Position numbers and translations under genes: made by a program. This document shows, one piece after another, positions 1,220 to 21,072 of a DNA stretch of 34,922 nt. The stretch lies in the NCBI GenBank assembly GCA_026996165.1, contig JALWMP010000157.1, positions 1-34,922 of the forward strand, given 5' to 3'. The first letter of the stretch is position 1. Every line of letters begins with the position of its first letter. The notes under the pieces are model-generated. The model saw only the letters and a program-made list of their open reading frames with translations. It had not been told where the DNA came from and ran no database searches. Origin of the DNA: Campylobacteraceae bacterium (GTDB taxonomy: Bacteria; Campylobacterota; Campylobacteria; Campylobacterales; Sulfurovaceae).

Positions 1220-2047
1220 TTAATTTTTTATTTCATTTTTACCTTTAACAATAAAGCTCAACTCCTCATCGCTAATATCTCTTAAATAATCTATACCACA
1301 CTTTAAATCTTTAAGATATTCAAAAGCCTTGTAGACATTTTCTTGAGTAATAATACTTCCATGTTGAGGCATAATATTTGTTACCTCCCTATCTTTAAAA
1401 TTGATTAAAAAATTTCTATTAGCTTTATTTGCAGCAATGTAACCTTTGTGAAAAAAGTCCATATCCTCTTTATGTTTATCGAAATCATCTTCAAGTATAA
1501 GCTTCCACTCTAGGCTAATAGCTGCCCAAATATCTCCAGAGAAGAGGGTTTTTGTATGACGATTATAAATAGTTACAGCTCCAGGTGCATGCATAAATGG
1601 AGATGGAATAAACTCTAATACTGCACCTGAATCAAGTGTTAAAGTAGGGTTTGTTTCTGTATTAAAATATCTATACTCTTTTCCATCTGGAATATAGTGT
1701 TGAATCAATACATTTGTATTTGGTGAGGTGATAATCTCTATGTCTGGATTTAACTCAAGCCAATCTACCATAGCAGAGGTAACATCAGGGTCTTGATGAT
1801 TAACAAATATTTTAGTAATATATCTTATTGGCATTACCTGTTTAATCCGTTTTAGTGTATTTTGAAACTCACTCCTGCTTCCACAATCTATAATTATCCC
1901 CTCTCTTTTATCTTTAATAAGATAGATATTGCTCTTAAACGCTTCAGAAGAGCTTGTTCCTACCCAATATATTTTATGATGACCCTTATCTATTAAAAGT
2001 ACAGCATCTTTATTAAAGTCATATTTTGTATTTATATCTTTGTTCAT
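1220..2047 (-). CDS. ODP-type di-iron metallo-beta-lactamase-fold sensor (distal copy)
   Basis: A 275-residue stand-alone metallo-beta-lactamase domain of the flavodiiron/ODP (oxygen-binding di-iron protein) group. The metal-site motifs are visible: NHQDPDVTSA (family HxExDH loop), SPFMHAPG, LFSGDIWAA with the bridging Asp, and MPQHGS with the last His. The C-terminal flavodoxin domain of true flavodiiron reductases is absent, so an enzyme of that kind would lack its FMN electron donor. A characterised ODP protein from Treponema senses oxygen or iron for chemotaxis; a sensory role here is inferred from its place beside a kinase and two receivers. It is the last operon gene and about 84% identical by eye to the copy upstream, with a short extra tail (VKGKNEIKN). 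Its SD is AAAGGAT. Confidence 0.85.
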   Translation of the reverse strand: MNKDINTKYDFNKDAVLLIDKGHHKIYWVGTSSSEAFKSNIYLIKDKREGIIIDCGSRSEFQNTLKRIKQVMPIRYITKIFVNHQDPDVTSAMVDWLELNPDIEIITSPNTNVLIQHYIPDGKEYRYFNTETNPTLTLDSGAVLEFIPSPFMHAPGAVTIYNRHTKTLFSGDIWAAISLEWKLILEDDFDKHKEDMDFFHKGYIAANKANRNFLINFKDREVTNIMPQHGSIITQENVYKAFEYLKDLKCGIDYLRDISDEELSFIVKGKNEIKN

Positions 2048-2055
2048 GAAGATTT

Positions 2056-2073
2056 ATCCTTTATATCTCTAAA
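2056..2073 (-). repeat. duplication fossil of the response-regulator 3' end between the ODP genes
   Basis: The 18 bases ATCCTTTATATCTCTAAA (plus strand) recur exactly at 2890-2907, where they encode FRDIKD near the C-terminus of the response regulator. At 2056-2073 they lie in the ODP-ODP spacer, also providing the AAAGGAT ribosome-binding site. Reading on gives TCTTCATGA, so even the ATGA start/stop overlap is preserved. The tandem duplication therefore carried the regulator's 3' end along with the ODP gene. Confidence 0.8.
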
Positions 2074-2077
2074 CTAT

Positions 2078-2881
2078 TTACTCAATAAAGCTCAACTCTT
2101 CATCACTAATATCTCTAAAGTAGTCTATACCACACTTTAAATTTTTAAGATAAGCAAAAGCTTTTTTAACATTTTCTTGAGTAATAATGCTTCCATGTTG
2201 AGGCATAATATTTGTAACTTCTCTCTCTTTAAAATTGATTAGAAAATTTCTAGCTGCTTTATTTGAAGCGATATATCCTTTATGAAAAAAGTCCATATGC
2301 TCTATATGTTCACTAAAATCATCTTCAAGTATGAGTTTCCACTCCAAACTAATAGCTGCCCAAATATCTCCAGAGAAGAGGGTTTTTGTATGTCGATTAT
2401 AGATAGATACTGAACCAGGAGAGTGCATAAATGGAGATGGAATAAACTCTAGTACAGCACCTGAATCGAGTGTTAATGTAGGGTTTCTCTCTGTATTAAC
2501 ATATCTATACTCTTTTCCATCACTCATATAGTGTTTAATCAAGGTATGTGTATTTGGTGAAGCTATAATCTCTATATTTGGATTTAACTCAAGCCAATCT
2601 ACCATGGCAGATGTAACATCAGGGTCTTGATGGTTTGCAAATACTTTAGTAACGTAAGAGAGGGGCATTACCTGTTTTATTCGTTTAACTGTCTCTTGAA
2701 ATTCGCCTTGACTTCCACAATCTATAATCATTCCCTCTCTTCTATCTTTTATAAGATAGATATTGCTTCTAAGTGCTTCGGTAGAGGTTGTTCCAACCCA
2801 ATATATTTTATGATGACCTTTGTCTATTAAAAGTACTGCATCTTTTGAAAGGTCATATTTTGTATTTATATCTTTATTCAT
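2078..2881 (-). CDS. ODP-type di-iron metallo-beta-lactamase-fold sensor (proximal copy)
   Basis: A 267-residue paralogue of the following gene, with the same motifs: NHQDPDVTSA, SPFMHSPG, LFSGDIWAA and MPQHGS. In both copies the position that is the second His of the flavodiiron HxExDH loop is Val, and the Glu is Asp, so metal coordination should differ from a flavodiiron reductase. There is no flavodoxin or receiver domain. The start ATG overlaps the stop of the upstream response regulator by four bases (ATGA), indicating translational coupling and possibly matched amounts of the two proteins. Differences between the paralogues cluster in surface segments (DFSEHIEHM versus DFDKHKEDM) and leave the metal loops unchanged. 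The fold call is firm; ligand and partner are inferred. Confidence 0.85.
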   Translation of the reverse strand: MNKDINTKYDLSKDAVLLIDKGHHKIYWVGTTSTEALRSNIYLIKDRREGMIIDCGSQGEFQETVKRIKQVMPLSYVTKVFANHQDPDVTSAMVDWLELNPNIEIIASPNTHTLIKHYMSDGKEYRYVNTERNPTLTLDSGAVLEFIPSPFMHSPGSVSIYNRHTKTLFSGDIWAAISLEWKLILEDDFSEHIEHMDFFHKGYIASNKAARNFLINFKEREVTNIMPQHGSIITQENVKKAFAYLKNLKCGIDYFRDISDEELSFIE

Positions 2882-3945
2882 GAGAATCTATCCTTTATAT
2901 CTCTAAATCGTTCAAAATTATCTGCAAATAGAGTCACTAGTGCAGGGTCAAATTTAATACCTCTTTCTCGTTTAATAATATCAAGAGCTTCCATAGAGGA
3001 GATAGTTTCAGGAGAGTAGATTCGAGAAGTAGTTAGCTCATCAAAATAGTTAACAATAGCAGCAATTCGTCCATAAAGAGGAATGCTTTCTCCTTTTATA
3101 CCATGAGGATAGCCACTTCCATCCCAATTCTCTTGATGTGTTAAGATAACCTCTTTTGCCATCTTTATTAAGGTAGTCTCCTCTAACTCTTCAAGAATAT
3201 CTAAGCCTAAGAGAGGATAGGCTTTAAATGCTTTTGAGTTTGGATTAGCTCTATCCTCTTTTGGAACACGAAGTAGACCAATATCGTAAATAGACATAGA
3301 GTAGTATAGGTTGTCAATCTCTTTAGAGTTTAGTCCATTGAGTTTTGCCATTACTTTAGCATACTCTCCAATTCTCTTTGAAGCGTAAGTATCACTACTA
3401 CCATTTTCATGAGAGTTTTCATGGGCAATATTGCCAAGCTTCTCTAAAAGCTTTTTTTGTGAACCTATGGCAATCTCTATAGCCTCTTTTAGATGAGATA
3501 GATTAGAGGAAGAGGAGGAGTCCTCCTCTTCTATTTCACTTAATAGTTCAGAGAACTTTTTAATACGTAGGTGGTTATAGACACGTAGTTTTAACTCTTC
3601 GGGATTAAAAGGTTTAGAGATAAAATCATCTGCACCTAGCTGATAAGTTTTTCTTTTCTCTTCCTCTTTTGAGGTAACAACAACTACAGGAATATCTCGA
3701 TACTCTGCATTAGATTTTAGATATTTTAATGTCTCAAACCCATTCATCTTTGGCATCATTAAATCAAGTAAAATCAAGTCTATAGCTTCAGTCTCTAAGA
3801 GTTTAAGAGCCTCCTCTCCATTATCAGCTTGTATTACATTTATTCTATCATACTCATCAAAAACTGCACTTGCTAACTCTTGATTAAACTCATCATCATC
3901 AACATTTAAGATAAGAGTATCTTCAAAATTTTTAAAATCTTTCAT
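2878..3945 (-). CDS. response regulator: receiver plus degenerate HD-GYP domain
   Basis: Residues 10-125 form an intact receiver: acidic NVDDDEF pocket, phospho-acceptor Asp61 in LLDLMMP, Thr91 and Lys111 in ISKPF. A Ser/Glu-rich linker follows (EEEDSSSSS, near 138-147). Residues about 165-345 match the HD-GYP c-di-GMP phosphodiesterase fold, with the C-terminal signature DGSGYP at 275-280, but metal ligands are lost. The HD motif reads YDIG (220-223), the HP.LG histidine is Tyr in AYPLLG, and the HH pair is HQ at 270-271. It is probably catalytically dead and acts by binding, perhaps to c-di-GMP or a GGDEF partner. It abuts the kinase gene with no gap and overlaps the ODP gene by four bases. 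Confidence 0.85.
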   Translation of the reverse strand: MKDFKNFEDTLILNVDDDEFNQELASAVFDEYDRINVIQADNGEEALKLLETEAIDLILLDLMMPKMNGFETLKYLKSNAEYRDIPVVVVTSKEEEKRKTYQLGADDFISKPFNPEELKLRVYNHLRIKKFSELLSEIEEEDSSSSSNLSHLKEAIEIAIGSQKKLLEKLGNIAHENSHENGSSDTYASKRIGEYAKVMAKLNGLNSKEIDNLYYSMSIYDIGLLRVPKEDRANPNSKAFKAYPLLGLDILEELEETTLIKMAKEVILTHQENWDGSGYPHGIKGESIPLYGRIAAIVNYFDELTTSRIYSPETISSMEALDIIKRERGIKFDPALVTLFADNFERFRDIKDRFS

Positions 3946-6012
3946 CTATGCCTCCTCTGTGACAGAGTCTAAAAGTAGAGATAGATGCTCCATTAATCTG
4001 TTTTTACCATCAACTATTGATATAAAGTCACCTTTTTCTGCCTTTTTTTGTAAATCTCCTGCTAAATTAGATAGCTCTTTAATTCCAATATTTGACAGGA
4101 CACCTTTAAGTGCATGGAAATCCTCTACTAACTCTTTAACATCTTTATTTTCAACACTCTTTTCAACTCTATCAAAATATGTTTTAATTGATGATAGTGC
4201 TTTCTGATACAGCTTATTTGCTACAGTATCGTTAAAGTTGTTTTTTAGATGATTTAGTGCTATATCTTTCATGCTATTGGCATCTGTTATGGATAACTCT
4301 TGCTTACTCTCTTCTTTCTCTTTAGATGTTTTCTCTTGTTCTGTAGTTATAAACTCATTGTTTAGTAGTTTAATAAGTTTATTTTCAATATCTTTTTTCT
4401 CTAAAGGCTTCTCAATAAAATCATTCATTCCTGACTCTTCTGCTGCTAGTTTGTCCTCTTTGTAGACATTTGCAGACATACAGATAATAGGAAGTTTTTT
4501 GTCAAACTCTCTAATTTTCTTTGTTGCTTCAAGTCCATTCATAACAGGCATACGCATATCCATTAAGACAGCATCATAGTTATTCTTTTTGACCTTTTCT
4601 ACAGCAATTAGACCATTTTCTGCTGTATCACAGTCTATAGAGAAGAAGTTGTTTAGCATCTCTTTTTCATACTCTCTATTTAGGTCAACATCTTCAACAA
4701 TTAAGATATTTAATCCAGAGTAGTCTACCTCTTTGTTAGACTCGAAGAACTCTTTTGAGTAGACCTCTTCAATCTGTTTAATAAAACGTTGGTGAGGAAT
4801 TGGCTTGTTAATCATCTTATCAAAATCAGAGAAGTTTTTATCGTTTTCTCTATCAACCACAGCAACTAACTTAATATCGGGATTAATTGCTCTTAGTGTT
4901 CCTGCAATATCCATGGTATGATTTTTGAAAATATCAGTATCAAAAATAGCCATATCATAAAAACGTCCTGAAGCTATCATCTGAACTAATGAAGCTGTAA
5001 TATCTCCATTTATAACATCATGATTTTGAAAATTAACTCCAAGATTTAAAAACTCTTTTGATACCTTCTCAACAAAAGTGTCTCTAGGGGAGAACATCAT
5101 AATGTTAGCACCCTTTAATGTCTTACCAATCTCTTTTTTGTTTGCTTTCTCAACAATAAAGGTTACTTCAAATCTACTACCCACACCTTTTTTAGAATCA
5201 ACTGTAATCTCTCCGTCCATAAGATGAGAAATCTCTTGTGAAATGTAGAGTCCCAGTCCTGTACCTTGGGTTTTGTCGGTTGATTGGAATGGATTAAAGA
5301 GTGTATCTGCAACTTCATCAGGAATACCGTCTCCTGTATCATCTACATTTGCAACTATCTTTACTTTGTTATTCTCTAGCTCTTCTATCTTTCTAACATA
5401 GAAACGGATTGAACCTTTTTTGGTAAACTTCGCAGCATTTGAAAGAAGATTAATAAAAATCTGTTTAATTCTCTTGTCATCAGCATTAATGGTATACTCA
5501 AGCATAGGAATATCTACAATAAAATCAACATCTTTTGCTACACGTGAGCGAATAAGATTTGCACAGTCATTTAAAATATCATCTAGTTCAACCTCTCTTG
5601 GAGAGATTTCAATTTTGTTGTCTCCAATTTTAGCAACATCAAGTAGGTCACTCACTAATGATAGTAGATGGTTTGAACTCTGAATCATACTATCCAAATA
5701 TCTCTTTTGTTTATTGTTTAGAGCTGTATCGTTAAGAAGCTCACCGTACCCTAAAATGGCTGTTAGTGGAGTTCTTAGTTCATGACTCACAGAGGCAATA
5801 AAACGTTTTTCATTGCTTAATGATGCCTCTAGTTCTGCATTTACTTCAGTTAAAAGGTGAGAGATAGTTAACTTATTCTCATTGGTAATTTTGTATTTTT
5901 TTTGTAATTGATGATACTTATTTTCAAATGAACGAATACGTTGAAGAGTAATCTCTTTATCTTTAAAATCTGGTGCTAACTCTATAGCTTTAGTTATATT
6001 TTCTACTAACAT
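3946..6012 (-). CDS. soluble hybrid sensor histidine kinase with pseudo-receiver, receiver and HPt
   Basis: The 688 residues are ordered as follows: a short N-terminal helix or coiled coil (1-65); HisKA with phospho-His77 in SVSHELRTP; an ATPase domain (NLLSNAAKF, DDTGDGI, GTGLGLYI, about 180-285); a degenerate receiver-like domain (about 300-415, FSPRD in place of the acidic pair); a full receiver (435-550, Asp485 in LMDMRMP, Lys535); and an HPt domain with His633 in FHALKG. There is no transmembrane, PAS or GAF segment, so the signal must come from a separate protein. The FIST gene one base upstream is the natural candidate. The HPt would pass phosphate to the two stand-alone receiver proteins of the operon. 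The architecture resembles BarA/TorS-type relays without their sensor part. Confidence 0.92.
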   Translation of the reverse strand: MLVENITKAIELAPDFKDKEITLQRIRSFENKYHQLQKKYKITNENKLTISHLLTEVNAELEASLSNEKRFIASVSHELRTPLTAILGYGELLNDTALNNKQKRYLDSMIQSSNHLLSLVSDLLDVAKIGDNKIEISPREVELDDILNDCANLIRSRVAKDVDFIVDIPMLEYTINADDKRIKQIFINLLSNAAKFTKKGSIRFYVRKIEELENNKVKIVANVDDTGDGIPDEVADTLFNPFQSTDKTQGTGLGLYISQEISHLMDGEITVDSKKGVGSRFEVTFIVEKANKKEIGKTLKGANIMMFSPRDTFVEKVSKEFLNLGVNFQNHDVINGDITASLVQMIASGRFYDMAIFDTDIFKNHTMDIAGTLRAINPDIKLVAVVDRENDKNFSDFDKMINKPIPHQRFIKQIEEVYSKEFFESNKEVDYSGLNILIVEDVDLNREYEKEMLNNFFSIDCDTAENGLIAVEKVKKNNYDAVLMDMRMPVMNGLEATKKIREFDKKLPIICMSANVYKEDKLAAEESGMNDFIEKPLEKKDIENKLIKLLNNEFITTEQEKTSKEKEESKQELSITDANSMKDIALNHLKNNFNDTVANKLYQKALSSIKTYFDRVEKSVENKDVKELVEDFHALKGVLSNIGIKELSNLAGDLQKKAEKGDFISIVDGKNRLMEHLSLLLDSVTEEA

Positions 6013-6013
6013 C

Positions 6014-7150
6014 TTATCTTCTCTCTCTTAATAGTGCAGTTACAAATGTCTCATTATGAAAAGCATTTCCTCCATTAGGAAATGCACCAATCTCTCCGTA
6101 AGCATAGAAGCCAATCAATGGGGTTTTAGTTACCTTGTAAATCGCTTCAATCTCTTCAATAGCATACTCTCCTAAAACCTGTTTTCGTGAACAACAAGGG
6201 AAGAGTAGTCCAATTTCTGGTTTAAAACCTTTATGTTTGCTCAAAACTTCATTAATACTCTTCTCAACATAAGGAATTATGGCTTTACCTCTTGCTGTAG
6301 AGAGTCTAACTCTTGACTTCTCTTCAACATGCCCTGCAAAAATCAATGCTCCAGTATCTTCTTGAATATCAAGAATTGCTCTGTAGACAATTTGACCATT
6401 TTTTAAACGAACCTCTAGGGGGTACTCTATCCCTGTTTGAGGCATATCGTCAGTGGTTACATTTAGATATTTTTTATAGAAATCAATAGCAGGTTTTTCA
6501 TCTATCTCATAAACAATGTTTTTGTCAGCTTTTGTTACAACTCTCTCTTGACCAAGACCTGTCCAACCAAATGCTCTAGTTCCTATAATATCTATCTTCT
6601 TTAAATCTAGTACAAGAACAATAATACCGTGAGAAGAGAAGTTCTCTTTTGAGAAGACAAAGGTATCTTTCAAAATCAAATCGTCTCCTGCTGCACCACC
6701 AAAAATATACTCTACTCCTGTAGATACAATACCTTGGCTATATCCATCATTGTCAAAGTCAAGTCCAGAGGTTACAGTAATAATAGCAGGATTAGCATAT
6801 TGCTCTTTTGCCCATGCTCCAACACGTTTACCTATCTCATAGTATCTATTGTCTTCTATTTGAAGAAGCCTTAAAGAGATTGCAGTAGTGTCAATGTCTA
6901 AAAGCATACAGACAATGGTCTCTTCTCTCTCCTTTGCTCCATGTTGTTCATCTGCAAAAATCTCTCCTACTGTAGTTGAGCCAAAAACCATAAATGGGTA
7001 GTTGTTAAGCTCTACCACTAATTTTCGGATATTATATCTAGGTGAAGTATAGATAAATGCTAAAGTTGGTTGAAACTCTTCTGTAATACTTCTGTTTATC
7101 TTATTTGTTAAGTCGCTTATTGAGTAAGCGTTTACGATAATACTTTTCAT
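6014..7150 (-). CDS. FIST-domain (FIST_N + FIST_C) sensory protein
   Basis: A 378-residue soluble protein made only of the two FIST halves. The N-terminal half contains SPRYNIRKLVVELNN and the glycine-rich FGSTTVGEIF. The C-terminal half ends in the family signature CCSRKQVLG ... IGFYAYGEIG ... FHNETFV. FIST domains are predicted ligand-binding sensors tied to two-component systems and cyclic-di-nucleotide enzymes. Some (NosP) bind haem and nitric oxide and control a co-transcribed hybrid kinase. The arrangement is the same here, with the kinase one base downstream, so this is the probable input module. Whether it binds haem, amino acids or something else cannot be read from the sequence. Confidence 0.88.
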   Translation of the reverse strand: MKSIIVNAYSISDLTNKINRSITEEFQPTLAFIYTSPRYNIRKLVVELNNYPFMVFGSTTVGEIFADEQHGAKEREETIVCMLLDIDTTAISLRLLQIEDNRYYEIGKRVGAWAKEQYANPAIITVTSGLDFDNDGYSQGIVSTGVEYIFGGAAGDDLILKDTFVFSKENFSSHGIIVLVLDLKKIDIIGTRAFGWTGLGQERVVTKADKNIVYEIDEKPAIDFYKKYLNVTTDDMPQTGIEYPLEVRLKNGQIVYRAILDIQEDTGALIFAGHVEEKSRVRLSTARGKAIIPYVEKSINEVLSKHKGFKPEIGLLFPCCSRKQVLGEYAIEEIEAIYKVTKTPLIGFYAYGEIGAFPNGGNAFHNETFVTALLRERR

Positions 7151-7168: not shown

Positions 7169-8287
7169 CTATATATTTTGTTTAACTATTTTTTCTCTTA
7201 GTTCAATAAAGTACTCAAAGTGATTCAAAAAAAGCTTTGTAATCTTTGGATGAAACCGTTGACCACTATTTGTCTCTAAAAGTTCAAAAGTCTCATCTGC
7301 TGTATGGAGTTTGTTATTTAAATAAGACTTTTGAGAAAGTAGAGCATTAAAAGTCTCCGTAAGAGATACTATATAGGCTATATTATGAATCTCATTCTCT
7401 TTTTTTTGTTTTGGAAACCCTGAACCATCAAAATGCTCCTTAGATTGCAATATTATTATTTTAGCTACTTTAATAAAGTTTGTCTCTATGGCAGAGTTCA
7501 ATAGTTGATACCCTGCAAATATAGATGAAGTATGAGTCTCTCTATCTAAGTCAGATAGACTATAAAGCATAGGTATCTTCTCATCTATAGATAGAGTACC
7601 AATTTCACGAATTAAGGTAGCATAATAGATTGTATTTGCCTGTTCTTTATTGTATCCTATAAGTAGACTTAGTGCTTTAGAGAGCAGTGCTACTATTTGA
7701 ATATCATTAAAGTTTTTATTTTTAGTACTCAACATTTTTGCCATAGAGTAGAAGAGCTTTTTTTGACTCTTTTCAATAGACTCTAAATTATAGCTATTTT
7801 GAGTATCTACCTCTTTTGTCTCTTTTAAGACTTCAGCTTTTGATTCTATAAGTGTCTTTTGAATATTGTCTTTTGATAATTCATTATATTTTTTCCTATA
7901 TTGTGATTTTTCTATATGTGCATATATTCTTGATTCGAGTTCAGAGAGTTTAAAAGGTTTAGAGATAAAATCGTCTGCTCCTAAAGAGTAGAGTTTGTTC
8001 ATCTCCTCTTCATCAGTAGTTACAATAGCTACAGGTATAAGGTCATATTTTACTTCATGTTTAATAGCTTTTAATGTCTCATATCCGTCCATTATTGGCA
8101 TATGTAAATCGAGCAGTACCATATCTATATTATGTTTTTCTAAAACCTCTAAAGCATCTTTACCATTCTCTGCCTCAGTAAAATGTATATTTTCTCTTTT
8201 TCCCAACAAATTTATAACAAGTTGCCGATTAAAAGGGTCATCATCAACAATCAATAAATTGATATTACCTAGAAGATTCCACTTCAT
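7169..8287 (-). CDS. response regulator: receiver plus highly degenerate HD-GYP domain
   Basis: First gene of the operon, 372 residues. The receiver (10-125) is complete: IVDDDPF, Asp60 in LLDLHMP, Thr90, Lys110 in ISKPF. A coiled linker follows (about 130-175). The C-terminal region (about 175-365) is a distant match to the HD-GYP fold and has lost every metal ligand I can place. The HD motif is REIG (227-230), the mid-domain HP.LG is SIFAGYQLL, and the HH pair reads QSKEH. The GYP motif is GFP (290-292), with DGSG before it retained. It is a paralogue of the second regulator with further decay, so a protein- or ligand-binding output is more likely than phosphodiesterase activity. AAGGAA precedes the ATG. 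Confidence 0.82.
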   Translation of the reverse strand: MKWNLLGNINLLIVDDDPFNRQLVINLLGKRENIHFTEAENGKDALEVLEKHNIDMVLLDLHMPIMDGYETLKAIKHEVKYDLIPVAIVTTDEEEMNKLYSLGADDFISKPFKLSELESRIYAHIEKSQYRKKYNELSKDNIQKTLIESKAEVLKETKEVDTQNSYNLESIEKSQKKLFYSMAKMLSTKNKNFNDIQIVALLSKALSLLIGYNKEQANTIYYATLIREIGTLSIDEKIPMLYSLSDLDRETHTSSIFAGYQLLNSAIETNFIKVAKIIILQSKEHFDGSGFPKQKKENEIHNIAYIVSLTETFNALLSQKSYLNNKLHTADETFELLETNSGQRFHPKITKLFLNHFEYFIELREKIVKQNI

Positions 8288-8441: not shown

Positions 8442-9527
8442 ATGGAAAAATATATTGGTATTATGTCTGGTACAAGTTTAGATGGTGTCGATGTGGCTCT
8501 TTGTGAACTAAACAATATAGAGTGCCATCTCTTAGCTTCTCACTTTATACAATTTGAAGATTCTCTAAAAAATCAAATTTTAAACTTAATAGCCAATAGA
8601 GTAACTCTTAAAGAGATAGGTGAAGTTGACCATCAATTAGCTCTCTTTTTTGCAAAAGCAGTAAATGAACTCTTAGCTAAGAGTTCATTTGACCCTTTAG
8701 AGGTGGAGGCTATTGGACTACATGGGCAGACTTTATGGCATGAACCTTTAGGTCAACACCCATTTTCAATGCAACTAGGTAATGCTTCTGTAGTAGCTGT
8801 TGAGACAAAAATAGATGTTGTCTCAGACTTTCGCTCTAAAGATGTAGCTTTAGGAGGGCAAGGAGCTCCTTTAGCTCCTGCTTTTCATGCTTTTTTATTT
8901 GCTCATTTAGATAGAGTAGCTGTTGTAAATATTGGAGGTATGGCAAATATCTCTATTTTTAAGCCAGAGCTTTTAGGTTACGATACAGGTTGTGGTAATG
9001 TTTTAATGGATATGTGGGTAAAAGAGCATCTAAATATCGCTTATGATAAAGATGGAGCATGGGCAAAATCTGGTGAAGTTCATGAAAAACTTTTAAATAA
9101 TATGTTAAATGACCCCTATTTTTTATTAAAATATCCTAAAAGTACAGGAAGAGAATATTTTAATAAGAATTTTTTAAGAAAATATTTGCAACCATTAGGT
9201 AAAATATGTGCCAAAGATGTTCAAGCAACCCTCTTAGCATTGACAGTAGAGAGCATCGCAAACGAAATTAGACAATTTGATGTTAAGGAGCTTTTAGTTT
9301 GTGGTGGTGGTGCAAGAAACATTTTTTTAATGGAAAAATTACAAGAGGCTTTACAAGATGTTGAAGTTAGTTCAACACAGAAGTATGGTGTAGATGCTGA
9401 CAATATGGAAGCGATGATATTTGCTTGGTTAGCCTACAAGAGAGTGCATCATGAAAAAGTTGACCTCAAGAGTGTCACAGGTGCAAAAGATAATACTATT
9501 TTAGGGGCAATATATGCAAAAGATTAA
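8442..9527 (+). CDS. anmK: anhydro-N-acetylmuramic acid kinase AnmK
   Basis: Full-length 361-residue member of the AnmK family. The N-terminal ATP-binding signature IGIMSGTSLDGVDVAL, GLHGQTLWHEP, NIGGMANIS, the catalytic-Asp motif GYDTGCGN and the C-terminal VCGGGARN are all present. The enzyme opens the 1,6-anhydro ring of anhydro-MurNAc released by lytic transglycosylases and phosphorylates it to MurNAc-6-phosphate in the cytoplasm. It overlaps the next gene, an AmgK-like kinase, by 14 bases. That links it to the MurNAc-to-UDP-MurNAc recycling route known from Pseudomonas rather than the E. coli MurQ route. Confidence 0.96.
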   Translation: MEKYIGIMSGTSLDGVDVALCELNNIECHLLASHFIQFEDSLKNQILNLIANRVTLKEIGEVDHQLALFFAKAVNELLAKSSFDPLEVEAIGLHGQTLWHEPLGQHPFSMQLGNASVVAVETKIDVVSDFRSKDVALGGQGAPLAPAFHAFLFAHLDRVAVVNIGGMANISIFKPELLGYDTGCGNVLMDMWVKEHLNIAYDKDGAWAKSGEVHEKLLNNMLNDPYFLLKYPKSTGREYFNKNFLRKYLQPLGKICAKDVQATLLALTVESIANEIRQFDVKELLVCGGGARNIFLMEKLQEALQDVEVSSTQKYGVDADNMEAMIFAWLAYKRVHHEKVDLKSVTGAKDNTILGAIYAKD

Positions 9528-10449
9528 ATCATGGTTAAATGATTTAGGTTATAGAGATTACAAAATAGAAGTGCTTGGTGGAGATGCAAGTTTTAGAAGA
9601 TATTATAGAGTTATAGATAAAGATAAAAGCTATATTCTTATGGACTCTACAGCAAACAAAGAGGTGCTTTACCCTTTTATTGATATTTCCGTTCGTCTAT
9701 TGAAAGTACAAGTTGAAGTACCACGTATTATTGCTCAAAATTTAGAGGAAGGGTATCTACTTTTGACAGATTTAGGTTCAAGACACTTAGCAGATATTTT
9801 AAGTGATATGAGTGTTGAATTACTATATACTAAAGCGATTGAAGAGATTTTAAAGATTCAAAAGGCAGATACTACAAACTTAGAACCTTATGATAGAGAG
9901 TTTTTAATGTTTGAGATGAGTCTAATGCAAGAGTGGTATTTAGAGCAACACCTTAAAAGAGATTTGAGTCAAGATGAGCAGAAGATGTTAGATGGTACAT
10001 TGGAGTTAATCTGCAATGAAGTCTTATCTCAGCCACAAGATGTTTTTGTTCATCGTGATTTTCACTCACGAAATATTATGATAGAGACAGGACATAAATT
10101 AGTGATTATTGATTATCAAGATGCACGAAATGGTGCTTTGACTTATGATTTGGTCTCTCTTTTAAAAGATGTCTATGTCTACTTTGACCCAAAACAGATG
10201 GAGATGTTAGCATTAGAGTTTAAGAGATTAAAGGGCGTTGATGTTTCAGATGAGCAGTTTATTCGATGGTTTGATTTTACAGGACTTCAAAGACATATTA
10301 AGATTTTAGGGATTTTTGCTAGACTAGATATTCGTGACAAAAAGAGTAGCTACATAGATAATATTCCCCAAACTCTACAATATATAGATGAGGTGTGTCA
10401 AAAGTATAGTGAGTTAAAACCATTAGGAGATTTTTTAAAAAAATTGTAG
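9514..10449 (+). CDS. amgK: AmgK-like N-acetylmuramate/N-acetylglucosamine anomeric kinase
   Basis: A 311-residue aminoglycoside-phosphotransferase-fold kinase with the AmgK N-terminal pattern GGDASFRRYYRV, the catalytic loop VHRDFHSRNIMI and the Mg-binding IIDYQDARNG. AmgK phosphorylates free MurNAc or GlcNAc at C1. The context (anmK before, a MurU-like gene after) supports this over a generic phosphotransferase. AGGGG precedes its ATG inside anmK. The TAG stop is formed by the first GTAGGGGC repeat, so the last codon or two and the stop come from the repeat boundary; the coding length is normal for the family. Confidence 0.85.
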   Translation: MQKIKSWLNDLGYRDYKIEVLGGDASFRRYYRVIDKDKSYILMDSTANKEVLYPFIDISVRLLKVQVEVPRIIAQNLEEGYLLLTDLGSRHLADILSDMSVELLYTKAIEEILKIQKADTTNLEPYDREFLMFEMSLMQEWYLEQHLKRDLSQDEQKMLDGTLELICNEVLSQPQDVFVHRDFHSRNIMIETGHKLVIIDYQDARNGALTYDLVSLLKDVYVYFDPKQMEMLALEFKRLKGVDVSDEQFIRWFDFTGLQRHIKILGIFARLDIRDKKSSYIDNIPQTLQYIDEVCQKYSELKPLGDFLKKL

Positions 10450-10795: not shown

Positions 10796-11449
10796 ATGAA
10801 AGCAATGATACTTGCAGCAGGATTAGGTACTAGAATGAGACCACTTACTAACCATACCCCAAAACCACTCTTAAAGATAGGAGGAAAACCTCTTATTGTT
10901 TGGCATATTGAACAACTGCGTAATGCAGGATTTGGACAAATAGTTATAAATATTGCCTATTTAGGTCAACAGATAATAGACTACTTAGGTGATGGTTCAG
11001 AGTTTGGTGTTCAGATTGAATTTTCTGATGAACAAAATGAAGGAGCATTGGAGACAGCAGGAGGGATTGTAAAGGCACTTCCTCTTCTTTCAGATACCTT
11101 TTTAGTAGTCAATGGAGATATTTGGACAGACTATCCATTTGATAGTAGCTATAAGTTAGATGATGGACTTTTAGCTAAACTAATTTTGGTAAAGAACCCT
11201 AAACATAATTTAGATGGTGACTTCTATCTGACAGGTACACATGAGAAATATACTTTTTCTGGTATTGGTTACTACTCTAAAGATATGTTTAAAGAGTTAG
11301 AGTATGGTAAACAGTCTTTAGCTCCATTACTCTTTAATGCTATTGATAAAAATATAGTTATAACGGAACTATATAATGGAAAGTGGTATGATATTGGTAC
11401 ACCTGAACGTTTAAGGCATTTAGATAATTTTTTAAAAGTAAATGCGTAG
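10796..11449 (+). CDS. murU: MurU-like sugar-1-phosphate nucleotidyltransferase
   Basis: A 217-residue nucleotidyltransferase with the signature LAAGLGTRMRPLT..TPKPLL, the metal-binding VVNGDIWTD and GTPERL near the C-terminus. The short length, without a left-handed beta-helix or regulatory tail, fits MurU (MurNAc-1-phosphate uridylyltransferase) rather than GlmU or RmlA. Following anmK and an AmgK-like gene, it should make UDP-MurNAc directly from recycled MurNAc-1-phosphate. AAAAGGAAG is its ribosome-binding site, just after the inverted repeat core. The MupP phosphatase needed between AnmK and AmgK in Pseudomonas is not next to it. Other nucleotidyltransferase specificities cannot be excluded by motif alone. 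Confidence 0.82.
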   Translation: MKAMILAAGLGTRMRPLTNHTPKPLLKIGGKPLIVWHIEQLRNAGFGQIVINIAYLGQQIIDYLGDGSEFGVQIEFSDEQNEGALETAGGIVKALPLLSDTFLVVNGDIWTDYPFDSSYKLDDGLLAKLILVKNPKHNLDGDFYLTGTHEKYTFSGIGYYSKDMFKELEYGKQSLAPLLFNAIDKNIVITELYNGKWYDIGTPERLRHLDNFLKVNA

Positions 11450-13322
11450 TCTTTTATTTTTACTTTTCATAAACCTTTCTTTGTCTGCACAACTTTTTAT
11501 AGTTGATAAAACAGAACTAAGTGAACTTGAGTCCTATTATAACTATACTTTTGTAGAGAGTATAGATGAGACTCCACTAGATATTAAAAATAGGAAATGG
11601 GTAAAAAGTTTTGATAACCTACCACAGAGTCGAGTTAAAAGTAGTTATTGGGTTAAGATAAAAGTAAAAAATAGTACAACAAAAAGAGAGACACGTTATC
11701 TTCTCTCTGAGAGGTCATATATATATTTAATTGATTACTATCTTGTAAAACAAGGTAAAATAGTTATTCATAAAGATGGAGGTTACTTTAAAAAAGAGGA
11801 AGCTCCTCTTGATAATATTACTCAAAGAGTTTTTCTTCTCTCTTTAGATAAAGGAGAAGTTGCAGATATTTATTTGAAAGTTCAAAGTTTTGATAAAATT
11901 AAGTTACACTTTAAGTTAGTAACAGCTAAATATCTTAGTCAATTTTCGATTGAGTATAACTTCTTGCAAGGAGTTTTTTTTGGTGTTATGTTTATTATGG
12001 TACTCTATAATCTATCACTCTATTTTATGTTAAAGTTCAAACCATATCTTTACTATATTATCTATGTTGTTTCTTTTATGAGTTATATGGCCTCTTATTT
12101 AGGATATTTTCATATCTATACTTCATTATCTTCAATTATGATATATGTTCTCTTAAATATTTCTATAGGTCTCTTTTTTATGTTTATAATAGGTTTTTTA
12201 CAAGAGTTATTTGAGATGAGAGCTTATGTTCTATATTTAAGTAGAGTACTTGATATATTCAAATGGTTTTCAATATTTATTAATTTTATTATTGCTTATT
12301 TATATTTTAAGAGTTTTACTTATAGTGAAGTTGCTGTTAATATTTTTTATATCTCTTTACCCATATTATACTCAATAATTATCTTTTCATTATTTTATTT
12401 ATACTATGTTTATAAAAATAGATTAGCACTATTTTATGCCATAATATGGAGTGTTTTGGGTTTTATAGGACTTCTTTATATTTTATCTAATACAGGGTTA
12501 GTTTCTATAAAATATGGTTTTGATTATCTATTTGAAGCTGGTATGTTGTTAGAGACTCTACTTTTTTCTCTTATGTTAGCTTATCGAATTAAGGAGATTG
12601 AAAAAGAGAAAGAGGAGCAGAAAAATCTCTTAATTCAACAAAATAAACTAGCAGCAATAGGTGAGACTGTTTCATTGATTGCACATCAATGGAGGCAACC
12701 TTTGAGTGAAATTAATGGAGTTGTTTTAAAAGTTGATGTTGATTTTAGAAAAGAGTCTTTAACAGAAGAAAGACTTAATGAATATCTTAATAATATTGAG
12801 GAAGTAACTGCTTATCTTTCAAAAACAATTAATGATTTTATGCACCTTTCAAGTCCTAAAAGGAGTTTAGAAAGCTTTAAGTTAAAGGAGCTTTTTGTAG
12901 AGAGTCAGAAGCTTATGAAGCACTCTTCTCATGTAAAATTTGAGATAAAATACTCTTTAACTGATGAGAATAGAGTTATTAAATCTTATAAATCAGAGCT
13001 TATTCAAGCCTTATTGATTATTTTTAATAACTCTATAGATGCTTGTAAAAATTTAAAAGTTGAACCTTTTATTAAAGTTAGAATAAAAATAGATAATGGG
13101 TATCTATTTATAGATATTGAAGATAATGGTGGAGGGATTAAGAGAGATGTTCTTTCTAAAATATATAATCCATATTTTACTACTAAACATGCTTCAAAAG
13201 GAACTGGTCTAGGCTTATATATTTTAAAAATGCTTATTGAGGAGAGTATGTCAGGTAAAGTTGAGATTAAAAATAAAAAGTTAGGTATTGTATGTAACTT
13301 AAAAATACCAATATCTCTATAA
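11442..13322 (+). CDS. 7TM-DISM membrane sensor histidine kinase
   Basis: 626 residues. A signal peptide (MRSLLFLLFINLSLSA) is followed by a periplasmic 7TMR-DISM extracellular sensing domain (about 20-165), seven closely spaced hydrophobic helices (about 172-383), a coiled coil, and a dimerisation domain with phospho-His415 in LIAHQWRQPL. An ATPase domain completes it (NNSIDAC, DNGGGI, GTGLGLYIL, about 520-625). Periplasmic DISM domains are thought to bind carbohydrates or similar small ligands. The start overlaps the murU-like stop by eight bases. Co-expression with amino-sugar recycling raises the possibility that it senses a cell-wall fragment, but that is inference. The OmpR-type regulator downstream is the likely partner. 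Confidence 0.93.
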   Translation: MRSLLFLLFINLSLSAQLFIVDKTELSELESYYNYTFVESIDETPLDIKNRKWVKSFDNLPQSRVKSSYWVKIKVKNSTTKRETRYLLSERSYIYLIDYYLVKQGKIVIHKDGGYFKKEEAPLDNITQRVFLLSLDKGEVADIYLKVQSFDKIKLHFKLVTAKYLSQFSIEYNFLQGVFFGVMFIMVLYNLSLYFMLKFKPYLYYIIYVVSFMSYMASYLGYFHIYTSLSSIMIYVLLNISIGLFFMFIIGFLQELFEMRAYVLYLSRVLDIFKWFSIFINFIIAYLYFKSFTYSEVAVNIFYISLPILYSIIIFSLFYLYYVYKNRLALFYAIIWSVLGFIGLLYILSNTGLVSIKYGFDYLFEAGMLLETLLFSLMLAYRIKEIEKEKEEQKNLLIQQNKLAAIGETVSLIAHQWRQPLSEINGVVLKVDVDFRKESLTEERLNEYLNNIEEVTAYLSKTINDFMHLSSPKRSLESFKLKELFVESQKLMKHSSHVKFEIKYSLTDENRVIKSYKSELIQALLIIFNNSIDACKNLKVEPFIKVRIKIDNGYLFIDIEDNGGGIKRDVLSKIYNPYFTTKHASKGTGLGLYILKMLIEESMSGKVEIKNKKLGIVCNLKIPISL

Positions 13323-13413
13323 AATATTTAAAATTAAAAGAAAATCACGGTTAATTCACAATATTATGTAATTATATTTTAAATTATTTTAATTAGGTCA
13401 AAAAAAGGGAACA

Positions 13414-14091
13414 ATGAAAATTTTAAAAAATTTAAATATATTATACGTCGAAGATGAAGATACTATTATTGACAAATATGCCTACTTCTTAGAAGAACTT
13501 TGTCGAGAAGTATATATTGCACGAGATGGAGAAGAGGCATTTCGTATTTTTGAAGAGAACAATATTCACCTTGTTATTCTTGATTTGCTTATTCCTAAAT
13601 TAAATGGTATTAATTTAGCAAAAAAGATAAGACAAATAGATGATAATGTAGCCTTAATTGCATTAACAGCTCATTCTGATAGAGAGATTTTACTGGATAT
13701 TGTAGATTTAAACTTCTCCTCTTACTTGATTAAACCAGTTGGACGTTCAGATTTGATGAATGCTCTACTTAAAGTATCTAAAAAAGTTGATGGAGGAAGA
13801 AATATTCCTCTTCCTTGTGACTGTTCTTGGGATAGTAAAAGTAAAACACTCTTTTGCGAAGAGAGAGCAGTAACTTTAACTAAGCGAGAGTCAAAACTAT
13901 TTGAGCTTCTTGTTGAGAAAGCAGGTGCTCCTTGTTCAGATGATGAAATCTTTTTTTATGTTTGGGGCGATGAGTTTAACAAGGTTATTACCAATTCATC
14001 TATTAGAACACTGGTAAAAAACCTACGTAAGAAGATACCACATAACTTAATTAAAAATCAATATGGTGTAGGGTATAAGATTAACTTTTAA
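13414..14091 (+). CDS. OmpR/PhoB-type response regulator
   Basis: 225 residues: a receiver (acidic VEDED, phospho-Asp57 in ILDLLIP, Thr85, Lys107 in LIKP) and a C-terminal winged helix (LTKRESKLFELLVEKAG ... SSIRTLVKNLRKKI ... YGVGYKI). It follows the 7TM-DISM kinase after 91 bases of A/T-rich DNA, so it may also have its own promoter. AAAGGGAAC precedes the ATG. The 3' end overlaps the convergent phosphatase gene by 11 bases. Targets are unknown. Confidence 0.93.
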   Translation: MKILKNLNILYVEDEDTIIDKYAYFLEELCREVYIARDGEEAFRIFEENNIHLVILDLLIPKLNGINLAKKIRQIDDNVALIALTAHSDREILLDIVDLNFSSYLIKPVGRSDLMNALLKVSKKVDGGRNIPLPCDCSWDSKSKTLFCEERAVTLTKRESKLFELLVEKAGAPCSDDEIFFYVWGDEFNKVITNSSIRTLVKNLRKKIPHNLIKNQYGVGYKINF

Positions 14092-19191: not shown

Positions 19192-21072
19192 GTGCAGAAT
19201 AAACTTACTTTTTTTAATAGTAATAGAGCTTATTATTATCTAATATTTACTTATATTGCACTCTCTTTTTTACTTATTTTCTCCTATAAGAGTATTGGTG
19301 GTTATGAAGAGAAAGTTGAAAATTTTCTTTTAAATAGGGCTATTGGTATTGTTGATGATACATCAACTAATATTCTTGACCAAATTATTTTTAAAAACCC
19401 AAATTTTATTAGGGCAAATTTAGAAGATAAGGTATTAAGGGCTGAAAATGAAAAAAGACTCTCTGTTTTATCAAATCAAGATATAAAATCTCTTTATGTT
19501 CTCTATTTAAATAAAGGTAGATACTTTTTTCTATTTGATATAGACAAAGAGGAACATACCGATGTTAGTGAACCTTTTATTCCTGAAAATGAGAAATTTT
19601 TTACTCAAGTTGTTAAAGAGAAGAAAAAGAGAGTTTTTGTTCAAAGAGATATAGATGGACTCTCTTTTACACTTCTTAAACCTATTGTTCAAAAGAATAA
19701 AACAGTTGCTCTTTTAGTAATTGACTATAGTGAAAATAGACTCTCTTCACTTTTACGTGTAAGTGTTGATTTTTTAAGTTATTCTGCTCTGATTTTGTTA
19801 TTTCTTCTTTTTGTTTTTTTTATTTATGTACTTTATACTCGTTATAACAAATATAAAATATATCGTAATCCTAAAACTAATACATATAACAGAGTCTATA
19901 TGACAGACAACTATGATAAAATTGATTTTAAAAACTATTATGTTGCCTTAGCTGATATTGACTTTTTTAAACGTATAAACAATCTTTATGGACAAGAGAA
20001 TGGAGATAAGGTAATTATATCTGTTATTAAAATAATGGCATCATTTTTAGAGAAGAGTGATATTTTTATTCAGTATAGTGGAGAGGAGTTTTTAATGCTT
20101 TTTTCCAAAGAGAATAGAACAGAAGAGTATGTACGGGAGTTATTGGAGAAAATACGTACTGCTGTTGAATGTACAAAATTTACTATAGATAAAGAGAAGT
20201 TCTCTTTGACTATTTCTATAGGTGTGTTGTTTCATACAGAAGTTGAAAAATCTCTACAAGAGGTAATTCACAAAGCAGATACAGCTCTATATGAATGTAA
20301 ACACAATGGTAGAAATTGTATCTCTTTTTTTGATATTAGTCAAACTCAAAGACTATATAGAGAGAAGTTAAAGGAGATGATAGAGACTGATAAATTGGTA
20401 TGTTACTATCAGCCTATTAGAGATTTAGAGACTAAGGAGCTTCATCATTACGAGGCACTTTTACGTATTGAAGATGGAGATAATATTATTTTTCCTGATA
20501 AAATTTTACCTGATTTAGAAGATTCATATCTTTATACCTATTTAACTAAGAGAGTAATTGAGTATAATATTAACAAATTAAGAGAAGATGAAAAGATACA
20601 AATATCGGTTAATTTGTCAGCTGATGACTTGATTAATGATTCTATTTTAGCAATGTTTGCACAAAACTCAGACTTATCTGATAGATTATATATTGAAATT
20701 TTAGAAAATAAAAGCATAGATTATAATAAAGTAGAACTCTCTTTACAGAAGTTAAAACTTTTTGGGTATAAAATTTGTATTGATGATTTTGGTTCAGGGT
20801 ACTCAAACTTAAATCATCTACTTAATCTTAGTATTGATTATTTAAAAATTGATGGAAGTATTATAAAAGAGATTCATCATGATAAAAAAGCTTATAGTCT
20901 TGTTAAAACTTTTGCTCTTTTTTGTCAACAAAACAATATTGAAGTAATTGCAGAGTTTATTGATAGTCAAGATATTGTAGATATTTTAAAAAGTTTTGGG
21001 GTTAAGTATGGACAGGGTTGGTACTTTTCTAAAGCAGTTCCTTATGATGAGTTAGGTAAGGAACATAAATAA
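19192..21072 (+). CDS. membrane GGDEF-EAL c-di-GMP turnover protein
   Basis: 626 residues, GTG start. A helix at 13-33, a periplasmic sensor domain (about 35-190) and a second helix (196-216) precede GGDEF (about 230-385) and EAL (about 395-618). The GGDEF A-site is SGEEF (296-300) instead of GGDEF or GGEEF, while DIDFFKRINN and GDKVI are kept, so cyclase activity is uncertain. The EAL domain looks complete: E421 of EALL, N474 in SVNLS, DD 531-532, K552 in YLKIDG, E588 and Q608, so phosphodiesterase activity is likely. It turns a periplasmic signal into a change in c-di-GMP. Confidence 0.93.
   Translation: MQNKLTFFNSNRAYYYLIFTYIALSFLLIFSYKSIGGYEEKVENFLLNRAIGIVDDTSTNILDQIIFKNPNFIRANLEDKVLRAENEKRLSVLSNQDIKSLYVLYLNKGRYFFLFDIDKEEHTDVSEPFIPENEKFFTQVVKEKKKRVFVQRDIDGLSFTLLKPIVQKNKTVALLVIDYSENRLSSLLRVSVDFLSYSALILLFLLFVFFIYVLYTRYNKYKIYRNPKTNTYNRVYMTDNYDKIDFKNYYVALADIDFFKRINNLYGQENGDKVIISVIKIMASFLEKSDIFIQYSGEEFLMLFSKENRTEEYVRELLEKIRTAVECTKFTIDKEKFSLTISIGVLFHTEVEKSLQEVIHKADTALYECKHNGRNCISFFDISQTQRLYREKLKEMIETDKLVCYYQPIRDLETKELHHYEALLRIEDGDNIIFPDKILPDLEDSYLYTYLTKRVIEYNINKLREDEKIQISVNLSADDLINDSILAMFAQNSDLSDRLYIEILENKSIDYNKVELSLQKLKLFGYKICIDDFGSGYSNLNHLLNLSIDYLKIDGSIIKEIHHDKKAYSLVKTFALFCQQNNIEVIAEFIDSQDIVDILKSFGVKYGQGWYFSKAVPYDELGKEHK

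Follow-up and report, generated by a model that had tools for sequence, protein, structure and literature searches.

Oxygen-binding di-iron proteins (ODPs) have been solved structurally from T. maritima (PDB 6qrq and 6qwo) and T. denticola (6qnm and 6r9n). The T. denticola protein has a role in chemotaxis, via CheA (PMC7666581, PMC6978683), and chemotaxis is the sole ODP output that has been studied experimentally. Muok et al. (2019) are credited in PMC7319448 with having also found ODPs fused to other domains or encoded in operons beside further signal-transduction genes. The novelty of the locus described here is limited because of that report, with which it shares the recruitment of an ODP as a sensor by other pathways. 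Two further systems invite comparison. Flavodiiron proteins (FprA, flavorubredoxin) share the metallo-beta-lactamase fold and likewise hold a di-iron site, and NosP-NahK systems combine a FIST sensor, a hybrid kinase, and a c-di-GMP response regulator.

The locus lies in a 34,922-nt stretch of DNA from a Campylobacteraceae bacterium, which was analyzed as a whole and is referred to below as the window. Unlike the solved ODPs, its two ODPs form a tandem pair and are tied to an operon of FIST, kinase, and HD-GYP genes, not to a chemoreceptor. The operon resembles NosP-NahK systems in that a FIST protein adjoins a hybrid kinase and the response regulators have c-di-GMP-type output domains. It differs in that the FIST protein scores below the NosP cut-off, the HD-GYP outputs are degenerate, and ODPs are added. 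The 2019 ODP paper aside, we found no published description of this operon composition in the literature searched.

Two ODPs and their metal site

ODP2 (positions 2078..2881, minus strand, 267 aa) and its tandem paralogue ODP1 (1220..2047, minus strand, 275 aa) match the ODP profile PF19583 over their full length, with 193 and 186 bits, respectively, against a cut-off of 27.2 bits. A Pfam profile search gave no flavodoxin match in either protein. The best solved relatives of ODP2 are the T. maritima (6qrq/6qwo; E 2.6e-44) and T. denticola (6qnm/6r9n; E 3e-37) ODPs. An AlphaFold2 model of ODP2 (pLDDT 91.5) is predicted to have the ODP fold: the ten best PDB fold matches found with Foldseek are all ODP chains, ranked above every flavodiiron protein. 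The proteins of 6r9n, 6qnm, 6qwo, and 6qrq share with the window ODPs the sequence family, fold, and length, the motifs HQDPDV, FxHS/PG, SGDI, and PQHG, and the lack of a flavodoxin domain, at ~35% identity. No other PF19583 protein and no flavodiiron protein were found in the window assembly, which is 86.6% complete, so such absences are not absolute.

A preliminary description of this region had recognized tandem ODP paralogues without a flavodoxin domain, as the profile scores bear out, and had correctly read HQDPDV, FMH, SGD, and PQHG in both copies. It had also called the di-iron loop altered, and this claim should be dropped. Relative to flavodiiron proteins the substitutions of Glu by Asp and of His by Val are real, given that HxEPDH occurs in all 12 Campylobacterota flavodiiron proteins compared (~410-430 aa). 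Within the ODP family they are the rule, with HQDxD[V/I/L] present in 103 of the 103 ODPs from the fetched loci. The loop was not selected for, because these ODPs were gathered by other stretches (the motifs FSGDI and PFLHSPG) or by whole-protein similarity. Printed alignments have HQDPDV in both crystallized ODPs, from T. maritima and T. denticola. The PDB title of 6r9n, the T. denticola protein, names a peroxy di-iron species; thus, a protein with exactly this loop holds two irons and peroxide.

Alignment and the literature predict H84, D86, D88, H153, D172, and H229, plus Q228, as the metal ligands of ODP2. The ligands of the E. coli flavodiiron protein (His79, Glu81, Asp83, His84, His147, Asp166, and His227; PMC13133992) align, in order, with H84, D86, D88, V89, H153, D172, and H229 of the window protein; besides the loop, four of the seven side-chain ligands are the same in kind and place. 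A glutamine of the T. maritima ODP has been described as a ligand that replaces the lost histidine (PMC7785958). Judged by its position directly before H229, Q228 would correspond to this published motif-5 replacement. Both window copies have it, and the position is Gln in 46/46 ODPs and Leu in 12/12 flavodiiron proteins. The window ODPs thus have the complete ODP-type set (HxDxD[V/I/L], H, D, and QH), and they differ from flavodiiron proteins in having no FMN domain after the lactamase domain, HQDPDV for HxExDH, and Q228 for His84. Alignment with the two families groups the site with ODPs. Given both solved structures, the 103 relatives, and the invariant, published glutamine, we reject an altered or damaged site; by family and by their intact ODP metal set, ODP1 and ODP2 are ordinary oxygen-binding di-iron proteins. 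The preliminary description had allowed that another residue might restore the site together with measured reductase activity. Of the two, Q228 supplies the former. With no FMN domain found, the earlier view that reductase activity is unlikely for either protein alone stands.

Origin and divergence of the copies

Aligned over their whole length, ODP1 and ODP2 are 85% identical in protein, close to the 84% previously estimated by eye, with the same metal residues, and 86% identical in DNA. Their divergence is under purifying selection (dN 0.083, dS 0.586, dN/dS ~0.14; NG86). They are separated by 30 nt (2048..2077, minus strand), and direct reading shows that the sequence ahead of the ODP1 start nearly repeats the one ahead of ODP2 (TTTAGAGATATAAAGGATA). 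The duplication thus took in the 3' end of REC-HD-GYP A together with the ribosome-binding region; it took place in situ and carried the translation start region along. The base of the genus clade is not resolved in the ODP tree, which gives no age for the event. Because a second genome (G407) has the same tandem pair, with copies 99% and 97% identical to those in the window, the arrangement is more than chance; these are the only two genomes with two ODPs among 34 of the genus.

The pair could reflect dosage, with two copies of one function, or two specialized sensors, and we put dosage somewhat short of an even prospect. The identical metal residues, the purifying selection, and the restriction of the pair to two genomes are in keeping with dosage, as is the placement of the 41 differences, only 2 of which affect any of the 64 columns with ≥90% conservation. 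Specialization would better account for the retention of the pair through the divergence of the two genomes, the longer branch and C-terminal extension of ODP1, and a cluster of substitutions (S154A, S157A, and S159T) beside the ligand H153.

A conserved operon with a sensorless kinase and degenerate outputs

Read 5' to 3' on the minus strand, the operon encodes REC-HD-GYP B (7169..8287, 372 aa), a FIST_N-FIST_C protein (6014..7150, 378 aa), a hybrid histidine kinase (3946..6012, 688 aa), REC-HD-GYP A (2878..3945, 355 aa), ODP2, and ODP1. The successive gaps are 18, 1, 0, -4, and 30 nt, REC-HD-GYP A overlapping the start of ODP2 by 4 nt. The ODPs are therefore genetically coupled to a kinase and receivers. 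The kinase is soluble and has the Pfam architecture HisKA-HATPase-REC-Hpt, with only ~68 aa ahead of HisKA and no input domain recognized by Pfam even at E<=1. Since a kinase of this kind must obtain its signal from another protein, the FIST protein and the ODPs are candidate signal sources encoded with it. Annotation of the FIST protein as NosP was rejected (75.9 bits versus an equivalog cut-off of 450); it is a distant relative, and sequence search found no solved structure related to it.

The receiver domains of both REC-HD-GYP proteins look intact. In protein A the HD dyad is changed to YD and the HH motif to HQ, with the GYP triplet kept; the HD-GYP domain of protein B is strongly degenerate (HD to RE, HH to SK). 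Neither protein retains the HD dyad, HH motif, and DIGK lysine of a phosphodiesterase, and active c-di-GMP hydrolysis was rejected on the basis of these lost catalytic residues. In the site table, none of 17 HD-GYP domains of these operons keeps the HD dyad, which is present in PmGH, whose structure is known, and in 9 of 10 HD-GYP domains near other ODPs. Degenerate across the genus yet retained, the two window proteins are candidate pseudo-phosphodiesterase effectors. In Xanthomonas RpfG, the GYP triplet mediates binding to GGDEF proteins. The window genome encodes four GGDEF proteins, one of them a GGDEF-EAL protein in the window (19192-21072), and no PilZ match was found in this genome.

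The four-gene core (REC-HD-GYP, FIST, kinase, and REC-HD-GYP) recurs in a Sulfurovum-related genus whose members are labeled, for example, Sulfurovum sp. UBA1140 or Campylobacteraceae bacterium. Of the 34 genomes, 29 have FIST and 11 have ODP; one of these ODPs is a fragment located at the end of a contig. Six other loci (L053, L054, L055, L058, L059, and L061) preserve the core order and have ODP as the last gene, and the core occurs without an adjacent ODP in L181, L187, L189, L191, L195, and L167. Three of the genomes having the core without ODP (G393, G422, and G426) carry an orphan ODP elsewhere. ODP is thus the optional last gene of the operon, doubled in only two genomes. That its presence follows the kinase phylogeny was not supported: the tree requires ~4 changes and shuffled labels do nearly as well, in a test in which L059, with an ODP at a distance of four genes, carried the wrong label and in which contig ends truncate L182, L183, L188, L193, and L198. 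Contig C186 (L168) of the window genome carries a second set of REC, FIST (50% identical), and short hybrid kinase genes without an ODP.

ODPs as probable inputs to signaling pathways

Across the survey, ODPs are used mainly in the company of kinases and diguanylate cyclases, as neighbors or in fusions. A signaling gene (kinase, receiver, GGDEF, EAL, HD-GYP, or FIST) occurs in the same directon at 72 of 80 named ODP loci versus 42 of 684 background genes, a contrast that stays large although related species among the 80 loci are not independent, which makes the p-values too favorable. A c-di-GMP domain shares the directon at 37/80 ODP loci and at 16/684 background genes. The contrast spans Campylobacterota, Gammaproteobacteria, Zetaproteobacteria, and Bacteroidales. 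HisKA-HATPase or GGDEF domains come after ODP, either in the following gene or in fusions with ODP in the N-terminal (input) position, giving ODP-HisKA-HATPase followed by a response regulator, or ODP-GGDEF. Term searches found no mention of the family in a recently published census of sensory inputs to c-di-GMP signaling. Non-haem di-iron input of O2 and iron to two-component and c-di-GMP signaling is directly testable.

The ODP-type site and the signaling context make a sensor role, which the preliminary description had proposed, the best reading of ODP1 and ODP2. As the explanation of the whole locus, they are probably paired O2/iron sensor subunits that feed the FIST-kinase pathway. Each ODP would hold two irons within its metallo-beta-lactamase fold. 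If it behaves like the T. denticola protein, it may reversibly bind O2 as a peroxo adduct, and its state would then report iron and oxygen. With no electron-transfer domain, neither would be expected to act as a reductase. Together with the FIST protein, the soluble subunits may act in trans on the input-less kinase and so control the phosphorylation of the two receiver proteins, whose HD-GYP domains, no longer c-di-GMP phosphodiesterases, probably act by binding partners. Against this reading, the tie between ODPs and kinase is operon membership, which is circumstantial. The core operon of close relatives without an adjacent ODP, including the three genomes with ODP elsewhere, also weighs against it; because these relatives keep the core, ODP is not essential to it. 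A more elaborate and rather doubtful version is a two-gas module, in which FIST (possibly haem/NO) and the ODP pair (O2/iron), differently tuned or heterodimeric, would act in trans on the one sensorless hybrid kinase, with receiver-controlled pseudo-phosphodiesterases that work by protein binding as outputs.

Alternatively, the ODPs might bind metal and do a job unrelated to the kinase, such as iron buffering or hydrolysis, being merely co-transcribed with it. The many core operons without ODP and the orphan genes would fit such a role, which we nevertheless regard as unlikely, given that N-terminal ODP-kinase and ODP-GGDEF fusions indicate an input function for the family and that kinase and cyclase neighbors recur in several phyla. 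There is only a slim chance that the ODPs are O2 or NO reductases fed by a separate flavoprotein, detoxifying and not sensing: the fold is that of flavodiiron proteins, and with no other PF19583 protein in the window genome a detoxifier could be missed, but no flavodoxin or rubredoxin domain or neighbor is present, the site type is common to known sensors, and signaling neighbors prevail across the surveyed loci.

Signaling to chemotaxis, although the sole ODP role studied by experiment, has next to no likelihood here: no MCP signaling domain was found in the window genome and 12 congeners (13 genomes), in a search with positive controls that recovered up to 38 in other families of the order, and the 34 genomes contain no true FliG, only weak matches in ~815-1020-aa frames that are not FliG-sized. 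Without a chemoreceptor or true FliG found in the genus, the known route from ODP to CheA is unavailable; the link was rejected, and a T. denticola-type route is very unlikely. The window ODPs, on the favored reading paired sensor subunits serving the kinase, belong to bacteria whose searched genomes yielded no chemoreceptor.

Several observations lie beside these results. The ODP-GGDEF fusions (L049:2775-4538, L050:4060-5814, L088, and L090) are putative di-iron-controlled diguanylate cyclases and compact targets for biochemistry. Another Campylobacterota ODP subgroup adjoins ~500-aa REC proteins that are 28-72% identical to each other (L040:7868-9367, L041:8060-9562, L042:10410-11936, L043:10404-11903, L044:13100-14590, L046:7955-9457, L051:3833-5380, and L052:8006-9475); in the one scanned, the C-terminal part has no Pfam match. 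By eye, the L040 protein resembles PilZ at its far C terminus (RKTVR ... DISLEA) and so may be an undescribed c-di-GMP-binding output. Elsewhere in the window, AnmK (anhydro-MurNAc kinase) adjoins an AmgK-like kinase (8442-10449), the two being peptidoglycan-recycling kinases of different routes. A 7TMR-DISM membrane kinase is followed by an OmpR-type response regulator (11442-14091), an ordinary two-component pair.
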